Shown here piece after piece: positions 20,007 to 30,209 of a stretch of 64,000 nt of DNA (within the stretch, counting starts at the first letter, position 1; every line of letters starts with the position of its first letter). This stretch comes from Rhizobium phaseoli (GTDB taxonomy: Bacteria; Pseudomonadota; Alphaproteobacteria; Rhizobiales; Rhizobiaceae). The position numbers and the translations under genes are program-made. The DNA lies in contig NZ_ML133566.1 of NCBI RefSeq assembly GCF_003985125.1, positions 310,001 through 374,000 of the forward strand, given 5' to 3'. The notes below the pieces were generated by a model. It was not told where the DNA came from. It made no database searches and saw nothing but the letters and a program-made list of their open reading frames with translations.

Positions 20007-20933
20007 ATGATCAGGGTCGAAGGCATTGCCGCTTTCGTTGCTGTCGTCGAGGCCGGCTCGGTCAGCGAGGCGGCCCGGCGGCTGCGCCTCTCCAAATCCG
20101 TCGTCAGCGAAAGGCTGGCAGAACTGGAGAAGGCGCTTGGCGGCACGCTGCTGCACCGTACGACGCGCAAACTCACTCTGACGGAAGACGGTGCGGTCTT
20201 CCTGGAACGAGCCGGGCGCATCGTGCGCGAGATCGAGGAGGCCGCCGCCGACATGGCCGAGCGGCGCGGCGCGCTGTCCGGCCCGATCCGTATTGCTGCA
20301 CCCGTCACCTTCGGCCGCATGCATCTCGGTCCGGCGCTCTATCCCTTTCTCGCCCAACATCCCGACATCCACCTGACGCTCGATATCGACGACCGCCGTG
20401 TCGATGCTGCCTCGGACGGTTATGACGCCATCATCCGCAACGGCCCGCTCGCCGACAGCCGGCTGGTTGCCTGGAAGCTTGCGCCGAGCCGCCGGCTTCT
20501 CTGCGCGGCGCCGGATTATCTCGCCCGCCAGGGAATGCCGACCTCGCTCGCCGACCTCAACAATCATCGCGGTATCTTCTACACCAATCGCGGTGTCGCC
20601 GACTGGCGCTTCCAGACGCCGGAGGGGGCGATCCTCGTCCGGGCAAAACCGGCGCTCGGCATCAACAACGGCGATATGCTCCGCGACGCCGCCATCGCCG
20701 GCCTCGGCATTGCGCTGCTGCCCGCCTTCATCGCCGGCCCGGCCATCCGCGAGGGCCTGCTTGCCGAAATCGATGTCGGTCACAGGCCGGAGGCCGAATT
20801 CATCTATATGGCTCATCCCGCCGGCCGGAACCCCTCGGCCAAGCTGCGCGCCATCGCCGATCACCTGAAGAAGAGTTTTGGCGATCCGCCCTATTGGGAT
20901 ATTGCGGATGAACACGAAGGTTCGTCAGGATGA
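20007..20933 (+). CDS. LysR family transcriptional regulator
   Basis: A 308-aa regulator. The winged helix-turn-helix covers residues 1-60 (AFVAVVEAGSVSEAARRLRLSKSVVSERLAELE), followed by the linker helix and a periplasmic-binding-like effector domain ending near residue 300. Sequence type resembles the CrgA/AaeR-like group with EGRRGALSGPIRI-like spacing. It is divergent from the SDR gene and directly upstream (4-nt gap) of an MFS gene that it may also regulate. Confidence 0.93.
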   Translation: MIRVEGIAAFVAVVEAGSVSEAARRLRLSKSVVSERLAELEKALGGTLLHRTTRKLTLTEDGAVFLERAGRIVREIEEAAADMAERRGALSGPIRIAAPVTFGRMHLGPALYPFLAQHPDIHLTLDIDDRRVDAASDGYDAIIRNGPLADSRLVAWKLAPSRRLLCAAPDYLARQGMPTSLADLNNHRGIFYTNRGVADWRFQTPEGAILVRAKPALGINNGDMLRDAAIAGLGIALLPAFIAGPAIREGLLAEIDVGHRPEAEFIYMAHPAGRNPSAKLRAIADHLKKSFGDPPYWDIADEHEGSSG

Positions 20934-22559
<1,626 letters not shown>

Positions 22560-22589: not shown

Positions 22590-24251
22590 TCAATCCAGCC
22601 GGATATAGGGCACGTCCTTCTTCGTCACCTCGTCCAGCGCCTCCTCGTAGCCCGCATCGGCATACCGCATGACGCCGAGGGCGGTGTCGTTGGTCAGCGC
22701 GTGGTCGAGCCGTTCGTCGGCGGAATCGGTGCCGTCGGCGATGACGGTGACGCCGCAGCTCGTCATGTAGCCGGCATAACCGCCGCCGCCGGAATGGACG
22801 ACGACGAGATCGGCCATCGACGAGCAGAGCATCATCGCATCGATCAGCGGCCAGTCGGCGATCGCATCCGAACCGTCCTTCATCCGCTCGGTCATGATGT
22901 TGGGATGCGCCATGGCGCCGGCATCGAGATGGTCGCGGGAAAAGGCCACCGGGCCTTTGAGTTCGCCGCCTGCGACCAGCGCATTGACGCGCCGCGCCAG
23001 CATCGTGCGTTCGCCGTGGCCGAGCCAGGCGATGCGCGCCGGCAGCCCCTCGAAGGGGACGTGCTCGCGCGCCAGCCGGATCCAGTTTGTGATGATCTTG
23101 TTGTCGGGGAAGAGTTCGAGCAACAGATCGTCGACGCGGGCGATATCGTTATTCTCGCCCGACAGCGCCATCCAGCGGAACGGGCCGATCGCCCGAGCAA
23201 AGAGCGGCCTCAGATAGGCTTCGGTGAAGATCGGAATGTCGAAGGCATTGGTGACGCCGCCCTCTTTGGCCTGGGTGCGGATGAGGTTGCCGTTGTCGAA
23301 GACTTCGGAGCCGCGCTTCTGGAAATCCAGCATCGCCGTTACATGTTCGACGATCGAGGCGCGGCTTGCCGCCATCAATTGCCCCTGGCCGTCGTCGCGC
23401 AGCCCTTTGACCTGATCCAGGCTCATGCCCTTCGGCACATAGCCATAGACGAGGTCATGCGCCGAGGTCTGGTCGGTGACGATGTCGGGCACGATGCCGC
23501 GCCGGGCGATTTCGGGATAGACCTCCGCCGCATTGCCGACGAGCCCGACCGACAGCGCCCGCTTCTCCTTAACCGCCGCATCGATCATCTGAAGGGCGGT
23601 ATCGAGATCGGGCGCTATTTCCTGGAGATAACCGATCTGCTGGCGCTTGTGCGCGCGCTCCGGATCGATGTCGATACAGAGGATCGCAGCCCCCGCCATG
23701 CGGCCTGCGAGCGGCTGCGCCCCGCCCATGCCGCCGAGACCCGCCGTCAGCACGAAGCGGCCGGCGAGATCGCCGCCGAAGCGCCGCTCGGCAATGCGCA
23801 TGAAGATCTCGTAGGTTCCCTGGATGACACCCTGGCTGCCGATATACTGCCAGGCCCCCGCCGTCAGTCCGCCCCAGCAGATCAGTCCCTTGCGCTGCAG
23901 TTCGTAGAACACCTCCGCTTTAGCCCATTGCCCGACGATATTGCAGTTCGCCATGATGACGAGCGGCGCCCTGGCGTGCGTCCTCACCAGCCCGATCGGC
24001 TTGCCGGACTGGATAAGCAGCGTCTGGTCCTCCTCCATCTCGGTCAGCGCCTTGACGATGCCCTTATGCGCCGCCCAGCTGCGGGCCGCCTTGCCGAGCG
24101 CGGCATAGACGATCAGGTTTTCGGGATCCTCGCCAACGGAAAGCACGTTTTCGAGCAGGCGCAGCAGCGCTTCCTGCCGCCAGCCCTTGGCGCGCAAGTC
24201 CGGCCCGCCGGGAATCGGAAATTTCGGATGACGCGGATTGGCCTTCGACAT
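22590..24251 (-). CDS. Urocanase-family hydratase, predicted thiourocanate hydratase
   Basis: A 553-aa protein covering the whole urocanase fold. The NAD-binding loop GLGGMGGAQPLAG is intact. However, the urocanase signature, normally FQGLPARICWLG, reads FEGLPARIAWLG: the active-site Cys is Ala408 (codon at 23028-23030), and the later HHGGGVGMG is changed to HSGGGGYAG. It is therefore unlikely to be a normal HutU. The gene set beside it fits thiourocanate hydratase of ergothioneine breakdown, which would make the thiohydantoin-propionate. ATG at 24251 matches the family start. A RIME-like repeat separates it from the TfoX-like gene. A standard annotation would be hutU; specific substrate is inference. 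Confidence 0.7.
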   Translation of the reverse strand: MSKANPRHPKFPIPGGPDLRAKGWRQEALLRLLENVLSVGEDPENLIVYAALGKAARSWAAHKGIVKALTEMEEDQTLLIQSGKPIGLVRTHARAPLVIMANCNIVGQWAKAEVFYELQRKGLICWGGLTAGAWQYIGSQGVIQGTYEIFMRIAERRFGGDLAGRFVLTAGLGGMGGAQPLAGRMAGAAILCIDIDPERAHKRQQIGYLQEIAPDLDTALQMIDAAVKEKRALSVGLVGNAAEVYPEIARRGIVPDIVTDQTSAHDLVYGYVPKGMSLDQVKGLRDDGQGQLMAASRASIVEHVTAMLDFQKRGSEVFDNGNLIRTQAKEGGVTNAFDIPIFTEAYLRPLFARAIGPFRWMALSGENNDIARVDDLLLELFPDNKIITNWIRLAREHVPFEGLPARIAWLGHGERTMLARRVNALVAGGELKGPVAFSRDHLDAGAMAHPNIMTERMKDGSDAIADWPLIDAMMLCSSMADLVVVHSGGGGYAGYMTSCGVTVIADGTDSADERLDHALTNDTALGVMRYADAGYEEALDEVTKKDVPYIRLD

Positions 24252-24274
24252 GGTTGTTCCTCGCTTGGTCTCTG

Positions 24275-24432
24275 TTTTCCCTTCTCCCCGGTCGGTGGCC
24301 CGAAGGGTCGGATGAGGGCGCCACACGGTAGGCCTTTGCTTGCCTTCGCTTGCGCTCAGGCACTCGTGGCCCTGCCGCTCGCCCCCTCATCTGTCCTTCG
24401 CACATCTTCTCCCCGCCGGGGAGAAGGGAAAA
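24275..24432. repeat. RIME-like intergenic mosaic palindrome, copy 1
   Basis: Arms 24275-24320 and 24380-24432 are imperfect reverse complements, carrying the blocks ttttcccttctccccgg, gg-cgaagg-t/c and gatgagggcg. The same blocks form the arms of 45803-46009. It sits inside the predicted catabolic operon, between the TfoX-like gene and the urocanase-like gene. Confidence 0.75.
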
Positions 24433-24434
24433 CT

Positions 24435-24764
24435 CTACTTCCCCGGCAGCGATTCCACATAGGCGATCGCGCCATCGAGCAAGCGCCGTCGCAGCGCATC
24501 GCCGCCGTAGACCTCGGCGGTCACCTGCAGCCAGCCCTGCATGACCCGCTCGCCCGACAGCATCTGGATCACCCCGGGCAGGGCCAGCGCCCAGCCGTCA
24601 TTGCCCTTGCCGAGACGCATCAGCATGCCGTCGCTGCGCGCGCCGCAGAGAAGATTGCCGTTCAGCAGGAAGGCCCGGCCGCCGAACATCGATTGTTCGG
24701 TCAGCCCTGGCCGATCGCCGAGTTCTTCGCGCAGCAGTTCTTCGAGGCCGGGATCGCGCGTCAT
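24435..24764 (-). CDS. TfoX/Sxy N-terminal domain protein
   Basis: A 109-aa protein with the TfoX N-terminal domain pattern: LTEQSMFGGRAFLLNGNLLCGAR, then LGKGN and ending in the YVESLPGK helix. The C-terminal Sxy domain is missing, as in many rhizobial single-domain members. Known full-length TfoX/Sxy proteins are competence regulators; the single domain has no proven role. It starts 3 nt after the DUF917 stop and so belongs to the same transcript; a functional link to catabolism is not evident. Confidence 0.82.
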   Translation of the reverse strand: MTRDPGLEELLREELGDRPGLTEQSMFGGRAFLLNGNLLCGARSDGMLMRLGKGNDGWALALPGVIQMLSGERVMQGWLQVTAEVYGGDALRRRLLDGAIAYVESLPGK

Positions 24765-24767
24765 GAC

Positions 24768-25865
24768 TCAGGCCTTCGTTTCCAAAGCGTAGCGGGCAAT
24801 CTCGATCCCCATCGCCTTTTCGACGACGGGATAGACGGTGGGATCGAGCACGCTCGCCGACAGCGGGATGATATCCTTCGGCACATGCAGGATGAAGACG
24901 GACATGCCCTCCTGCAACTGGCCGACGCTGAGCGGCTCGCCCTCCGGAGAAAGCGTGGTGATCACCGCGGGGAAGGTGGCAAGCCGTGCGCCATCGGCAT
25001 CGTCCACGGCCATATATTCGTTCATCACATGCAGCCTCACCGATTTTGCGCCCGTGCCGACGGTGACCGTGCCGATATCGAAAGCTTCTTTGGTGTAGAC
25101 GACGTCCTTTCGAGAGATGACGCCCTCGGCGAGGATATGCCCGCCCGTTGTCTTGCAGATGGCGTCGATCACAGCAGATCCGCCGCGTTTCTCCGCCGCG
25201 ATGATCGCCTCGCCGAGCGCAAGCGCCATCGAGATGCCGCCGAGTGCGGCGTGACTGCGGACATAGGAAGCGCGCAGCGGGTTGCGGCAGCTGGCGATGA
25301 AGCCGCCGGATTGATCGGCGGCGGCGCGCAGTACCGGCGAGATCTTCGCCGTCGCCCCCTTCACCACCAGCTCGATATAGCGGTTTTCGGCCCGATTGCC
25401 GCCGACCGCAGTCTGGATCATCGGCTCGGGCGAGCCGGCCATGCCGATCGAGCCCATGTCGCCGGTCGGATGGGCGCGGATATCGCCGACCGCGTCGACC
25501 ACCTTGGTGCCGAGGATCGCCGAGGGCAGCCAGCCGTTCAGGGTCGAGGATTTGCCGTTCTGGCCGATGATCAGCCCGAAAAGCTTTTCGCCGAGCGCCT
25601 CCTGCAAGAGCTGCACCGCCTTCACATAATCGATGCCCTGCATTTCCCAGGGCGTGGTGGAGGCGGGCGCGCCGATGGCAGCGGCCGTCGCGATCCAGTC
25701 CTCGTCCCGCAGCTCGTCGATCGAGACCAGCTCCGGTTTCCCGACATTGACGGCCGCAAGCCCGAGCATCCGCCCGTGATCGGCCCAGCCGCCGCCGCCG
25801 GCGGCATAGACGGAGCCGCCCTTGACGGCGGCTTCGACGTCTTTCTCAACCAGTATGCGTCCCAT
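24768..25865 (-). CDS. DUF917 family protein, predicted thiohydantoin desulfhydrase
   Basis: A 365-aa protein of the DUF917 family, recognisable from the glycine-rich GGSVYAAGGGGWADHGRML start, PEPMIQTAVGGNR and the NPLRASYVRSHAALGG segment. Relatives lie beside hydantoinase genes and share features with HyuA/oxoprolinase-type proteins. In this gene set the only step without another candidate is removal of sulfur from the thiohydantoin-propionate made by the upstream hydratase, so I assign that by elimination. Overlaps the M20 hydrolase gene by 20 nt, and the TfoX-like gene follows after 3 nt. Family call is firm; the reaction is inferred. Confidence 0.65.
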   Translation of the reverse strand: MGRILVEKDVEAAVKGGSVYAAGGGGWADHGRMLGLAAVNVGKPELVSIDELRDEDWIATAAAIGAPASTTPWEMQGIDYVKAVQLLQEALGEKLFGLIIGQNGKSSTLNGWLPSAILGTKVVDAVGDIRAHPTGDMGSIGMAGSPEPMIQTAVGGNRAENRYIELVVKGATAKISPVLRAAADQSGGFIASCRNPLRASYVRSHAALGGISMALALGEAIIAAEKRGGSAVIDAICKTTGGHILAEGVISRKDVVYTKEAFDIGTVTVGTGAKSVRLHVMNEYMAVDDADGARLATFPAVITTLSPEGEPLSVGQLQEGMSVFILHVPKDIIPLSASVLDPTVYPVVEKAMGIEIARYALETKA

Positions 25866-27126
25866 CGGCCTTCTCCCGCTTCAAATCCTTGTCCATCTCG
25901 CGCACCGCTTCGAACAGCACGGCGGCGCCGAGCGCGATGTCGTCATTGTCGGCCCATTCGTCGGGGCAATGGCTGCGGCCTCCCCGGCAGGGCACGAAGA
26001 TCATCGCCGCCGGCGCCACCTTGGCTATCCAGGCCGTGTCATGTCCGGCGCCGGACGCCATGCGCCGATTTTTCGCGCCGACACGCTCGCAGGCAGCCTC
26101 AAGCGTCGAAAGCAGGCTGGCATCGCCTGGTGTCGGCATGTTGTCGGACACCCGGTTCGGCGTCTCGATCGTCACGCCGTAGGCGGTGGCGAGCTTTTCG
26201 ACATGGCCGTCGAGCCAGCGGCAGAAGGCCTCCATGTCGGCGCGGATTTCCGCACGGCCGTCGATCAGCAGCACCACTTTCGACGGCACGACATTGGCGG
26301 CGTTCGGCTCGATCCTGAGTTCGCCGACCGTCGCGGCGAAGTGGCCCGGCATCTTGGCAAGTTCGGCGGCGGCGTTGCGGATGTCGAGCACCAGCTGCGA
26401 AGCCGCCACCAGCGCATCCGCCCGCCGGTCCATCGGCGTCGTGCCGGCATGGTCGGCTCGTCCCTCGACGGCAATTTCGATGCGGGTGATGCCGGCGATC
26501 GCGGTGACGACGCCGATATCCTTGCGTTCGGCTTCGAGCACCGGCCCCTGCTCGATATGCAGTTCTAGGAAGCCTGCCAGATCGGGCCGCTTCTGCTGGT
26601 CCAGCACGCCAGGCCTGCCACCCATTTCGGCGATACCTTCGGCCAAGTCGCGCCCATCGCTGACGCGCGATAGCCAGGCTTCCGGCAATTGCCCGGTCAT
26701 GCCGCGGCTGCCGATGCAGGAGACACCGAAGATGCTGACTTCTTCGGCGAGGAAATCGACGATCTCCAGATCGTGCTCGAGTTCGATGCTCTGGTCGCTG
26801 AGCGCCCGCGCCACCTCAAGCGCCGCGATCACCCCGGCAATGCCGTCGAAGCGGCCGCCGTCGGGCACCGTGTCGGAATGCGAACCGAGCATGATCGTGC
26901 CGAGCCACGGTTTGCGACCCGTGCGCCGGCCGATCAGATTGCCGGCCGCGTCGATCCGCGTTTCCAGTCCGGCCGCCTTCATCCGCGCTTCGAGATAGGC
27001 CCGGCCTTCGAGAAAGAGCGGCGAGAAGGCCCGCCGCGTCCAGGGGTGCCCCGGCTCGGTGATTTCGGCCAGCGCCACGATATCCTCGGCGATCCGGCTG
27101 ACATTGACGGGAAGATTGCGATTCAT
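25846..27126 (-). CDS. M20 family N-carbamoyl-amino acid hydrolase, predicted N-carbamoyl-glutamate hydrolase
   Basis: A 426-aa zinc-dependent amidohydrolase of the AllC/HyuC/beta-ureidopropionase group. Metal ligands are visible in GSHSDTVPDGGRFDG (H83, D94), LAEEVSIFG and ELHIEQGPVLE; the dimer-domain substrate motif is HAGTTPMDRRADA. The family removes carbamoyl groups from linear ureides. Next to a hydantoinase-like gene it would act on the ring-opened N-carbamoyl-glutamate, giving glutamate, carbon dioxide and ammonia. ATG at 27126 overlaps the upstream amidohydrolase stop by 4 nt. Allantoate amidohydrolase is the alternative, but no other allantoin genes are here. Confidence 0.78.
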   Translation of the reverse strand: MNRNLPVNVSRIAEDIVALAEITEPGHPWTRRAFSPLFLEGRAYLEARMKAAGLETRIDAAGNLIGRRTGRKPWLGTIMLGSHSDTVPDGGRFDGIAGVIAALEVARALSDQSIELEHDLEIVDFLAEEVSIFGVSCIGSRGMTGQLPEAWLSRVSDGRDLAEGIAEMGGRPGVLDQQKRPDLAGFLELHIEQGPVLEAERKDIGVVTAIAGITRIEIAVEGRADHAGTTPMDRRADALVAASQLVLDIRNAAAELAKMPGHFAATVGELRIEPNAANVVPSKVVLLIDGRAEIRADMEAFCRWLDGHVEKLATAYGVTIETPNRVSDNMPTPGDASLLSTLEAACERVGAKNRRMASGAGHDTAWIAKVAPAAMIFVPCRGGRSHCPDEWADNDDIALGAAVLFEAVREMDKDLKREKADGTHTG

Positions 27127-28502
27127 GCACCGGCTCCCGCAATGAGGTGGCGCGGCGGCGGCCGGACGAACCGGCCGGTGCCGGGCTTGGCCAGCACCTT
27201 GCCGCCTTCCGCGATCTTTTCGCCGCGCAGGTAGGTGGCCGCGACGGTCCACGGCAAGGCAATGCCGTTATAGGGGCTCCAGCCGACGACATTGTTGCCG
27301 CTGGCCGACGCATCATAGACATTTTCCCGCGGTTCCAGCACGGTGATATCGGCGTCCTTGCCCGGCGTCAGCGCTCCCTTGATATGGTCGAGCCGGAAAT
27401 GCTTGGCCGGATTTTCCGCCATCAGCCGGGCCGCCCAAGTCAGCGGAATTCCGCGCTCGATCGCGCCTTTGACGAAAAGCGGCACCATGACCTCGAGGCC
27501 CGGCACGCCGGATGCATTGGCGAGCATGTCGGGATTGGTCTTGCGGTTCTCCGACCAGCTGACGTGATCGGTCGAAACCAGCCAGACATCGCCCTCGGCC
27601 ACCTTCCGCCAGAGCTTCTCAACCTCGGCGCGCGGCCGCAGCGGCGGATTGATCTTCGCCTTGCCGCCGAGGCGCTTCACGTCATTCTCTTCGTCGAGCG
27701 TCAGATAGTGGATGCAGCATTCGACGGTCGCCGCAAAACCGTCACGCCGATAGGCGCGGGCGATATCGTAGCCGCGCCCGAGCGAGCAATGCACCACATG
27801 CGCCGGGCAGCTGGTGGCCGCACCCGTCTCGAAGATCGTGTGCATCGCCAGAAGTTCGGTGATCGGTGGCCGTGACAGGCCGTGCGCCCGCCAGTCGGTG
27901 ATGCCGCTCGCCTTTACTTGCTCCATGTAGCTGCGCACCGCCTCGTCGTCCTCGTTGTGCACGCCTGATGTCAGTCCCGTCGGCGCGATCGCCGCAAAGC
28001 AGGCGTCGAGCAGGGCCGGCGGAATGCGCGGAAAGCGCTTGGGGTCGGTGCCGAAAGTGGAAAACTTGAAGGCGGCGACGCCCGCCGCGACCATCTCGCC
28101 GATCCGCGCCGGGCCTTCTTCCGGATCGACGGTGCCGTAAAGCGCGAAGTCGACACGCGCCTGCGCGCCCGCGTGGTCGATCTTGCGTTTGACCGCTGCG
28201 GCCGAGCAGACGAGATCGCCCTCGTCATAGGGCATGTCGACGATCGTCGTGACGCCGCCGGCCGCCGCCGAGCGCGTCGACCAGATGAAGTCTTCCTGGT
28301 CTTTCTGCGAAAGCGAGTGCACCTGGGCGTCGATCGCACCGGGCAGGATCAGTGCTTTGCCGAGCAGATGCCGCTCGCGCGCTGAAGGCGGCACGCCGAG
28401 GCCGACCTCGGCGATCTTGCCGTCGCGGGCGGCGACATAGCCTTCGTCGAGAATGCGGTCCGGCAGCACCACCGTGCCCTGCAGAACGAGATCGAAGTCC
28501 AT
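27123..28502 (-). CDS. Hydantoinase/dihydropyrimidinase-like cyclic amidohydrolase, predicted hydantoin-5-propionate hydrolase
   Basis: A 459-aa cyclic-imide hydrolase of the allantoinase/dihydropyrimidinase/dihydroorotase superfamily. The metal motif that is normally HxH reads QVH (Q60, H62, in IDAQVHSL), as in some dihydroorotase-like subgroups. Downstream ligands appear as HNEDDE, HVVHCSLGRG and the Asp in STDHVSWSE near residue 310. The predicted role is opening hydantoin-5-propionate to N-carbamoyl-glutamate, the substrate of the next gene (4-nt overlap). ATG at 28502 rather than the longer frame to 28556. A generic annotation would be dihydropyrimidinase or allantoinase. Confidence 0.75.
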   Translation of the reverse strand: MDFDLVLQGTVVLPDRILDEGYVAARDGKIAEVGLGVPPSARERHLLGKALILPGAIDAQVHSLSQKDQEDFIWSTRSAAAGGVTTIVDMPYDEGDLVCSAAAVKRKIDHAGAQARVDFALYGTVDPEEGPARIGEMVAAGVAAFKFSTFGTDPKRFPRIPPALLDACFAAIAPTGLTSGVHNEDDEAVRSYMEQVKASGITDWRAHGLSRPPITELLAMHTIFETGAATSCPAHVVHCSLGRGYDIARAYRRDGFAATVECCIHYLTLDEENDVKRLGGKAKINPPLRPRAEVEKLWRKVAEGDVWLVSTDHVSWSENRKTNPDMLANASGVPGLEVMVPLFVKGAIERGIPLTWAARLMAENPAKHFRLDHIKGALTPGKDADITVLEPRENVYDASASGNNVVGWSPYNGIALPWTVAATYLRGEKIAEGGKVLAKPGTGRFVRPPPRHLIAGAGA

Positions 28503-28631
28503 GCGGCTTCCTCCTAGACTGAAGTCAGACCGTTGCCGGCTGGAGCGTGGTGCCAAAAGCGTGACGTCTGTCGAATGGCATCATCTGGTTAATGTAGAAC
28601 AGGATCCCAATTTTCAGGCCCTGGCCGGACA

Positions 28632-30209
28632 TCATCCTGTTCGGCTGGCCAGCCGCTCCTCGATGGGCTCCGGCGAGCCGAGTGCGAAGAAATCGTCGAA
28701 GGAGGCGATCGGAACCTGTTCGATCAATTTTGCCAGAAACTCGTCCGATCCGAGCTCTTCCTCGATCGCTTCCACCTCGGCCGAAAGCGGCCGGTCGACG
28801 GTATAAAAAGCCGCGTGTTTGCGCACGACCTGATAAAGCATGCCGGCGACGCCCTTCGGTTCGTCTCCGAGAATGTCGATTGCCTGGGCCGACAGCAGCG
28901 CCTCGAGTGCGGCAAGCCGCTTCAGCGCCTGCATCTGCCGCTCGAAGCGCTCGATGACGAGCGGCAGGAAGGCCGCCTCGTCCTCCAGGCCGGCTGCCAC
29001 GACCAGCGACTGCGCCGAAACGGGACCGGACATCGACAAGACGCGCGAGAAGATCTCGCCGGCAAGCTTGATGATCGGCCCGAAGCCGGTGGCGATCCGA
29101 CCCGGAGGCACGAGATTGACCGGCAGGTCGCGCCGCTGGCCATTGCCGAGAATGACGCAGCGGTTGAAGGCGTTGCGTGCCGCATGCGCCATGCAGAGGG
29201 CGGCCGATTCGAGCAGGATGGTCACATCGAGCGGCAGCGAGCCGCCCGAGGTCATCACCCTGCCTTCCACCACCACGGGATTGTCGTCCGAGCGGCCGGT
29301 GGCGGCAAGGATCTTGTGGCCGGTCGACAGCAGGTTTTCGATGACGGCGCCGAACACCTGGGCGATCATGCGCAGGCTGAGCGGATCCTGCACATGCGTT
29401 GCAACAGGCCAGTTCCAGTCCTCCGACGCATTGCAGAGCCAGGCGCCGATCAGTGCCTCGCGCGCCGTGCCGACATGGCGGACGGCTTTCCAGGGATCGC
29501 GGGAGGCGCCGAGTGCGCCGGCCGCCATCATCGCCGTCGCCAGCAGGATGCGGATCGAGGCCGCCGCATTGCGTGTCGTTTCCGCAGCGGCCGCAAAGCT
29601 CACCGCATTGATGCTGAGCGAGGCGAGGCTGTCGCGCGGCGCCATCCGCACCGGTTCCAGTCCCGCGGCCCGGAAGGCGTCGGCCGCCTGCATCCGCTTG
29701 CCGCGATAGACCGCTTCGCCGACGCCGGTGAGCACCGCGCCGATCTGCCCCATCAGGCCGATATCGGCGCAGCCGATCGAGCCGGTGCGGCGCACGACCG
29801 GGATGACATCGGCCTCCAGCATCCTGATATAGGCCTCGATCAGCTCCGGCGTGCAGCCGACCTGGCCGGTCAGCGCCGTATTGACGCGGATCGCCATGGC
29901 GTTGCGCACGACATTGCAGGAAAACGGCGTGCCGGTGCCGAAATGATGGGCGCGCACCAGGCCGAGATTGAAAGTGTCGAGTTCGTCGGCCGACCACTCC
30001 ACATCCTTCATGGCGCCCACACCGGTCGTCGAGCCGTAGACCGGCATGCCTGATGCAATCGCATCCTCGACGATCTCGCGGGCGATGGCGATGCGGGCCA
30101 TGCCGGTTGTCGAAGCGGAAACCGTCGCCTTGCCCGCACCGATGGTCACCATCTCGGCAAAACCAAGCGGTCGTCCGGAAAGTTCGATGCCGGGGCGTTC
30201 GTGCTGCAT
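28632..30209 (-). CDS. MIO-less aromatic amino acid lyase homologue, predicted ergothionase
   Basis: A 525-aa member of the histidine/phenylalanine ammonia-lyase fold: the catalytic Tyr loop VYGSTTGVG (Tyr58), QDPLSLRM and RSDDNPVV are all recognisable. The Ala-Ser-Gly triad that cyclises into the MIO cofactor is absent: GSVGASGD is replaced by GSIGCAD at residues 143-149 (codons TGC GCC GAT). Such an enzyme should not deaminate histidine. Ergothionase, which eliminates trimethylamine from ergothioneine to give thiourocanate, is as far as I recall a MIO-less member of this family because trimethylamine is a good leaving group. It is first in the operon, with AGGAG before the ATG. A standard annotation would be hutH. 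Confidence 0.72.
   Translation of the reverse strand: MQHERPGIELSGRPLGFAEMVTIGAGKATVSASTTGMARIAIAREIVEDAIASGMPVYGSTTGVGAMKDVEWSADELDTFNLGLVRAHHFGTGTPFSCNVVRNAMAIRVNTALTGQVGCTPELIEAYIRMLEADVIPVVRRTGSIGCADIGLMGQIGAVLTGVGEAVYRGKRMQAADAFRAAGLEPVRMAPRDSLASLSINAVSFAAAAETTRNAAASIRILLATAMMAAGALGASRDPWKAVRHVGTAREALIGAWLCNASEDWNWPVATHVQDPLSLRMIAQVFGAVIENLLSTGHKILAATGRSDDNPVVVEGRVMTSGGSLPLDVTILLESAALCMAHAARNAFNRCVILGNGQRRDLPVNLVPPGRIATGFGPIIKLAGEIFSRVLSMSGPVSAQSLVVAAGLEDEAAFLPLVIERFERQMQALKRLAALEALLSAQAIDILGDEPKGVAGMLYQVVRKHAAFYTVDRPLSAEVEAIEEELGSDEFLAKLIEQVPIASFDDFFALGSPEPIEERLASRTG

Follow-up and report, generated by a model that had tools for sequence, protein, structure and literature searches.

A DUF917 protein is the predicted thiohydantoin desulfurase of a five-step ergothioneine catabolic operon in Rhizobium

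The DUF917 gene at positions 24768-25865 of the window (the whole stretch of Rhizobium DNA analysed, 64,000 nucleotides) very probably encodes a thiohydantoin desulfurase, which would catalyse the third of the five steps encoded by an operon for ergothioneine catabolism. We put the probability of this reading at roughly 0.93. The family and the gene context are read from the sequence, and the chemistry (substrate and product) is taken from named models and the literature. The gene lies in a run of six same-direction genes on the minus strand (22590-30209), in which all five enzyme genes (MIO-less lyase, ErtD, ErtE, desulfurase, and hydratase) stand together. The genes and two codon features are as follows.

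28632-30209, minus strand: ergothionase-like MIO-less aromatic amino acid lyase, 525 aa (PF00221, 281 bits)
27123-28502, minus strand: ErtD, hydantoin-5-propionate amidohydrolase of the hydantoinase type, 459 aa (NF058538, 777.3; cut-off 600)
25846-27126, minus strand: ErtE, N-carbamyl-L-glutamate amidohydrolase, an M20-type carbamoylase, 426 aa (NF058540, 640.2; cut-off 520)
24768-25865, minus strand: DUF917/S-Me-THD family protein, predicted thiohydantoin desulfurase (desulfhydrase), 365 aa (NF058529 and Pfam)
25464-25472, minus strand: codons of H132-P133-T134 in the sulfur-clade signature RAHPT (generic members mostly RA[FY]PE)
25077-25079, minus strand: codon of D263, a sulfur-clade residue (19 of 19 rows versus fewer than 10% of 55 generic rows)
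24435-24764, minus strand: TfoX_N-like small protein, 109 aa (PF04993, 30.6 bits; cut-off 30.1)
22590-24251, minus strand: thiourocanate hydratase, a urocanase homologue, 553 aa (NF058530, 1052.5; cut-off 930)

The coordinates of the DUF917 gene in the original prediction are exact. No strand was given there; the gene is on the minus strand, where a single open frame from ATG to TGA leaves it intact. The protein contains S-Me-THD_N (PF06032; 58.4 bits, cut-off 27) and S-Me-THD_C (PF20906; 74.2 bits, cut-off 27), which are the two halves of the old DUF917, renamed in Pfam. It matches the NCBIfam equivalog NF058529, "thiohydantoin desulfurase", over its full length (residues 1-362) at 603.3 bits, with a cut-off of 440, and is the sole match to this model in its own genome at E ≤ 0.001. 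The equivalog name is an annotation, and the function that it gives to this protein is a predicted one. The closest records are from Rhizobium species and are 97% identical, and two scans of viral contigs (alignments A1 and A2) confirmed no relatives. The plus-strand frame over the same bases is likewise open (366 codons), and several further long frames within the window run antisense to real genes. A chance or antisense-frame reading was rejected, since both Pfam domains and the conservation fall on the minus strand.

The DUF917 gene had been described as translationally overlapped with the N-carbamoyl hydrolase gene, and the frame coordinates bear this out: with ErtE reaching to 25846 and the ATG of DUF917 at 25863-25865, the two frames have 20 nt in common. 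ErtD and ErtE overlap by 4 nt (27123-27126). For ErtE, the broader Zn-hydrolase model NF009531 outscores NF058540, at 845.5 bits. The best PDB match of the hydratase is 7ned (818 bits, versus 616 for the next), which carries the name 'Urocanate hydratase' in the PDB and which we take to be thiourocanate hydratase. A separate HutU-type urocanase (685.9 bits) is encoded elsewhere in the genome, on contig C4 (G000:C4), with a HutH-like lyase close to it; the ert copies of the lyase and the hydratase are therefore not needed for histidine. The operon is flanked upstream by ubiB and ubiE, and downstream by coaBC and by oppositely oriented LysR and MFS genes. No transporter was recognised within the window ert operon. 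A consensus scan returned 0 promoter-like sites and 6 terminator-like sites (5.3 expected), nothing above shuffles. By Pfam, the convergent genes at 20007-22559 (+) encode a LysR regulator and an MFS transporter, and a glyoxalase/VOC-like protein was noticed by eye from the translation near the 3′ end.

The first enzyme is best described as an ergothionase-like lyase. It scores 208 bits against the NCBIfam HutH model, far under the cut-off of 539, and its best PDB match is ergothionase (6s7j; 167.5 bits, versus 134 for the next). The Ala-Ser-Gly triad that forms MIO is missing, with GC-AD in its place. The lyase passes no NCBIfam cut-off, and there is no ergothionase model among its matches. 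The PDB match and the loss of the MIO triad make ergothioneine a candidate substrate.

With these assignments, the operon would support the following route. In step 1, ergothionase would free trimethylamine and leave thiourocanate, which thiourocanate hydratase would convert in step 2 to 3-(5-oxo-2-thioxoimidazolidin-4-yl)propionate. In step 3, the DUF917 protein would add water to the C2 thiocarbonyl and release hydrogen sulfide, giving hydantoin-5-propionate. In step 4, ErtD would open the ring, and in step 5, ErtE would yield L-glutamate. Hydrolysis of the C-S bond of the thiohydantoin is the step that the other operon genes leave open, and the window protein very probably removes the sulfur. 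The attack of water on the C2 thiocarbonyl would give a tetrahedral intermediate, from which hydrosulfide would then be expelled. Residues H132, T134, R194, and D263, which are fixed only in the sulfur clade described below, may bind and activate the substrate and water and transfer protons, and would be positioned on a scaffold common to DUF917 (D124, R130, N282, and E283). D263 is a candidate catalytic acid/base partner. An AlphaFold model of the protein, computed from alignment A3 (the window protein and 25 Rhizobium-type homologues, 86-97% identical), has a mean pLDDT of 46.1, with residues 1-212 under 50, and was set aside.

The order and the strand of the five enzyme genes are kept in 79 of 80 Rhizobium-type loci; the odd one (L034) starts inside ErtD at a contig end. 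Conservation of the five-gene arrangement is well beyond chance. Many Rhizobium genomes thus hold the full predicted route from ergothioneine to glutamate, which would release sulfide and trimethylamine and may bear on what becomes of this antioxidant in soil. The 20-nt overlap of ErtE and DUF917 is a lineage trait: it occurs in 37 of the 80 loci, among the 79 listed, and in the 42 other listed loci the spacing lies between a 1-nt overlap and a ~70-nt gap. The TfoX_N-like gene is present in 71 of the 80 loci and absent from 9, indicating that it is a passenger and not a required part of the operon. Its spacing to the hydratase gene varies among Rhizobium loci. In the window, this gap (24327-24434) contains a GC-rich palindrome, CTTCTCCCCGGCGGGGAGAAG as read on the minus strand, which is perhaps a repeat element.

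The distribution of the genes among genomes argues for the desulfurase assignment. Among 385 genomes sampled from the class, NF058529 gives a DUF917 match of any strength in 35 and one above its cut-off in 5; urocanase-type matches occur in 100, of which 5 exceed the cut-off for thiourocanate hydratase. The two sets of five are the same genomes, the window's own included, and the remaining four are each from a different family. The probability of such agreement by chance is ~1e-9 if the genomes are independent. In a sample of the phylum, over-cut-off desulfurase and hydratase occur in the same 6 of 398 genomes, which are not independent, as four of them (the window's own included) belong to one genus and one more to the same family. 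At most three hydratase candidates per genome were scored in both samples, so that a second hydratase in a genome could be missed. The desulfurase and hydratase profile matches are adjacent each time, 72-637 nt apart in all ten genomes.

Co-occurrence of DUF917 with MIO-less lyases across genomes had been proposed as a check, and this check, once run, favours the assignment. Ten genomes were checked individually, nine of them with an over-cut-off desulfurase. In 8 of these nine, a lyase resembling ergothionase (at least 36% identity) is encoded no more than ~8 kb from the desulfurase, and the MIO triad is absent in all five of these eight lyases that were inspected. Over-cut-off ErtD and ErtE occur in 8/9 and 7/9 of the same genomes, respectively. 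One genome (G283) has the desulfurase and the hydratase but lacks an MIO-less lyase, and its matches to ErtD and ErtE fall short of the cut-off. Another (G213) has no over-cut-off ErtE, and its ErtD is on a different contig. A tenth genome that was checked (G150) has no over-cut-off match for desulfurase, ErtD, or ErtE, and has a lyase 32% identical to that of the window (184.8 bits). Taken with the NF058529 score and the operon context, the co-occurrence supports the candidacy of this predicted protein as a C-S bond hydrolase, as put forward in the original prediction.

The desulfurases are separable from the rest of DUF917. We built a tree of 74 rows, comprising the window protein and 73 of 150 distinct sequences; we left out Rhizobium sequences almost identical to one another, repeat copies where loci overlapped, and rows shorter than 300 aa. 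The 16 desulfurases form one clade (support 100/99). Together with the S-methyl representative L164, L086, and L177, they make up a 19-row sulfur group, which a long branch (100/100) parts from 55 generic rows. The placement of the long-branched L164 inside the group is weak (83/59). Seven residues (W112, H132, T134, R194, D263, Y284, and M285) are fixed across the 19 rows of the sulfur clade and occur in under 10% of the generic rows, and H132 and T134 are not listed among the top residues of the generic rows. Five others (D124, R130, M137, N282, and E283) are present in 19/19 sulfur-clade rows and in at least 52/55 generic rows. Generic DUF917 proteins thus have in common with the window protein these five residues and the two-domain Pfam architecture, but those beside HyuA-type genes are only ~22-27% identical to it, fall in a separate clade, and mostly lack the seven sulfur-clade residues.

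The genomic neighbours differ as well. A HyuA-type hydantoinase/oxoprolinase relative, recognised by Pfam, lies within ~1.5 kb on either side in 36 of 40 generic DUF917 loci, which include several from one genome. Matches to ErtD, ErtE, the lyase, or urocanase at E 1e-5 were found in 0 of these 40 loci. The statement that genes for hydantoin-processing enzymes are general neighbours of DUF917 genes is therefore correct as an observation, but the enzymes in question are HyuA-type, a different class of hydantoinase from ErtD. The expectation that a function would follow for members annotated only as DUF917 is not supported: in view of the separate clade, the residues, and the HyuA-type neighbours, the desulfurase function should not be spread over the DUF917 family. 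The useful result is to mark where this function ends within DUF917. In this sample, the signature RAHPT, D263, and NEYM splits the sulfur clade from generic DUF917; it could keep DUF917 proteins from being labelled desulfurases too freely, and it points to an orphan third lineage of the sulfur clade.

Three other readings of the gene were weighed, of which one retains the fold family and changes the reaction. The S-methyl thiohydantoin desulfurases, which would release methanethiol in the S-methyl-ergothioneine branch, are a sister family inside the same sulfur clade and have all seven clade residues in common with the window protein, and NF058532, the S-methyl model, matches that protein. 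The match (282.5 bits) is nevertheless far under the cut-off of 450, whereas the cut-off of NF058529 is passed. The hydratase behaves likewise, passing NF058530 and failing NF058531, the S-methyl type (741.1 bits, cut-off 880). Moreover, the S-methyl-type hydratase and desulfurase of G283 occupy a locus (L164) separate from that of its thiohydantoin type (L165), and the L164 protein has H where the window protein has Q102. We therefore regard an S-methyl specificity of the window protein as highly improbable. The HyuA neighbours of generic DUF917 raise a different reading, in which the protein is a HyuA partner or scaffold subunit without desulfurase activity and another enzyme takes the sulfur off. 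Generic DUF917 may indeed have such a role. Among the window operon genes scanned with Pfam and NCBIfam, however, no HyuA-type gene was recognised, and the window protein belongs to a different clade with fixed residues of its own. The sole other operon gene without an assigned step, the TfoX_N-like gene, is missing from the 9 loci that keep the rest. For the window protein, a mere partner role thus has a very small probability.

The order of the reactions and the substrate of the operon also have to be considered. In gut bacteria, sulfur is reported to be removed earlier, by a thiourocanate desulfhydrase (Feng et al. 2025, as described in PMC13405746). That enzyme, as described there, likewise releases H2S in ergothioneine breakdown but acts on thiourocanate itself, and it is by this description that it is set apart from the window protein. 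The dedicated thiourocanate hydratase adjoining the DUF917 gene argues for sulfur loss after hydration in the window operon. As to the substrate, the operon might instead act on another 2-thioimidazole betaine or on 2-thiohistidine, and in G283 an MIO-type lyase, not an MIO-less one, is found beside the same desulfurase-hydratase pair. The window lyase, in contrast, is MIO-less and closest to ergothionase, and at another ert locus (L169) an MIO-less ergothionase-like lyase is paired with a glycine-betaine-type binding protein of an OsmF-type betaine ABC system (OsmF model 471.5, cut-off 400). A substrate other than ergothioneine is thus quite unlikely, and we retain the assignment of the window protein as a thiohydantoin desulfurase in ergothioneine catabolism.

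The desulfurase identity is very probably right for the window gene but is already known, and the enzyme type was named beforehand. The new biochemical function that was anticipated for DUF917 is already carried by NF058529 and the renamed Pfam domains. The 2021 work of Beliaeva and co-workers reportedly introduced the enzyme that removes the sulfur as a type not described before. Later work (PMC9732360) credits Beliaeva, Leisinger and Seebeck (2021) with five-step ergothioneine catabolism. Together with the Pfam names and the NCBIfam equivalogs, this citation shows that the function was established outside the window. Our literature search found no open-access description of the thiohydantoin step and no paper titled for the function of DUF917. 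The family of NF058529 has the same neighbours and predicted reaction as the window protein, and no sequence difference was found. The window operon differs from the known five-step system in its Rhizobium host, its location between ubiB and the coaBC region, and the inserted TfoX_N-like gene. The only solved relative by sequence is a hypothetical protein, PDB 2o3i (E 2.5e-9 with the single sequence, 2.7e-37 with the profile), which has RAVPSLPM where the window protein has RAHPTGDM, lacks the H132/T134 motif, and is without an assigned function.

It is conceivable, although doubtful, that the sulfur-handling DUF917 clade extends beyond ergothioneine breakdown through a third lineage and, separately, that MIO-type lyases feed the same route. 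The third lineage comprises L086 (from G150) and L177 (from G871), which are 51% identical to each other and 33-34% identical to the window protein, and keep all seven sulfur-clade residues. Its loci L172 (G150) and L199 (G871) have no recognised ert gene nearby; each has a permease, NCS1-type in L172 and OPT-type in L199. The substrate of this lineage may be a different thio-heterocycle, imported into the cell and then desulfurised.

The MIO-type lyase of G283 (L165:6314-12500; ASGD present) is followed by a desulfurase 72% identical to the window protein and a thiourocanate hydratase. Neither ErtD nor ErtE was recognised in the 18 kb of L165 examined. Next to the hydratase, on its far side from the lyase, comes a gene similar to type III sulfide:quinone reductase (178 bits, below the cut-off of 525), which fits sulfide release. 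A related arrangement in G238 (L202:6828-11168) combines an MIO-type lyase with second copies of ErtD and ErtE, both over the cut-off, and no urocanase or DUF917 match was found among the ORFs called there. The L202 lyase is 59% identical to that of L165, and only 43% identical to the HutH-like lyase of G283. The two lyases could be 2-thiohistidine or related ammonia-lyases feeding the same route. Finally, at the S-methyl locus of G283 (L164:6178-16460), the hydratase passes the S-methyl thiourocanate hydratase model (890.8, cut-off 880), and the desulfurase comes near to the S-methyl desulfurase model (409 bits, under the cut-off of 450). Four tandem aromatic-lyase paralogues without the MIO triad follow and perhaps form a hetero-oligomeric lyase.
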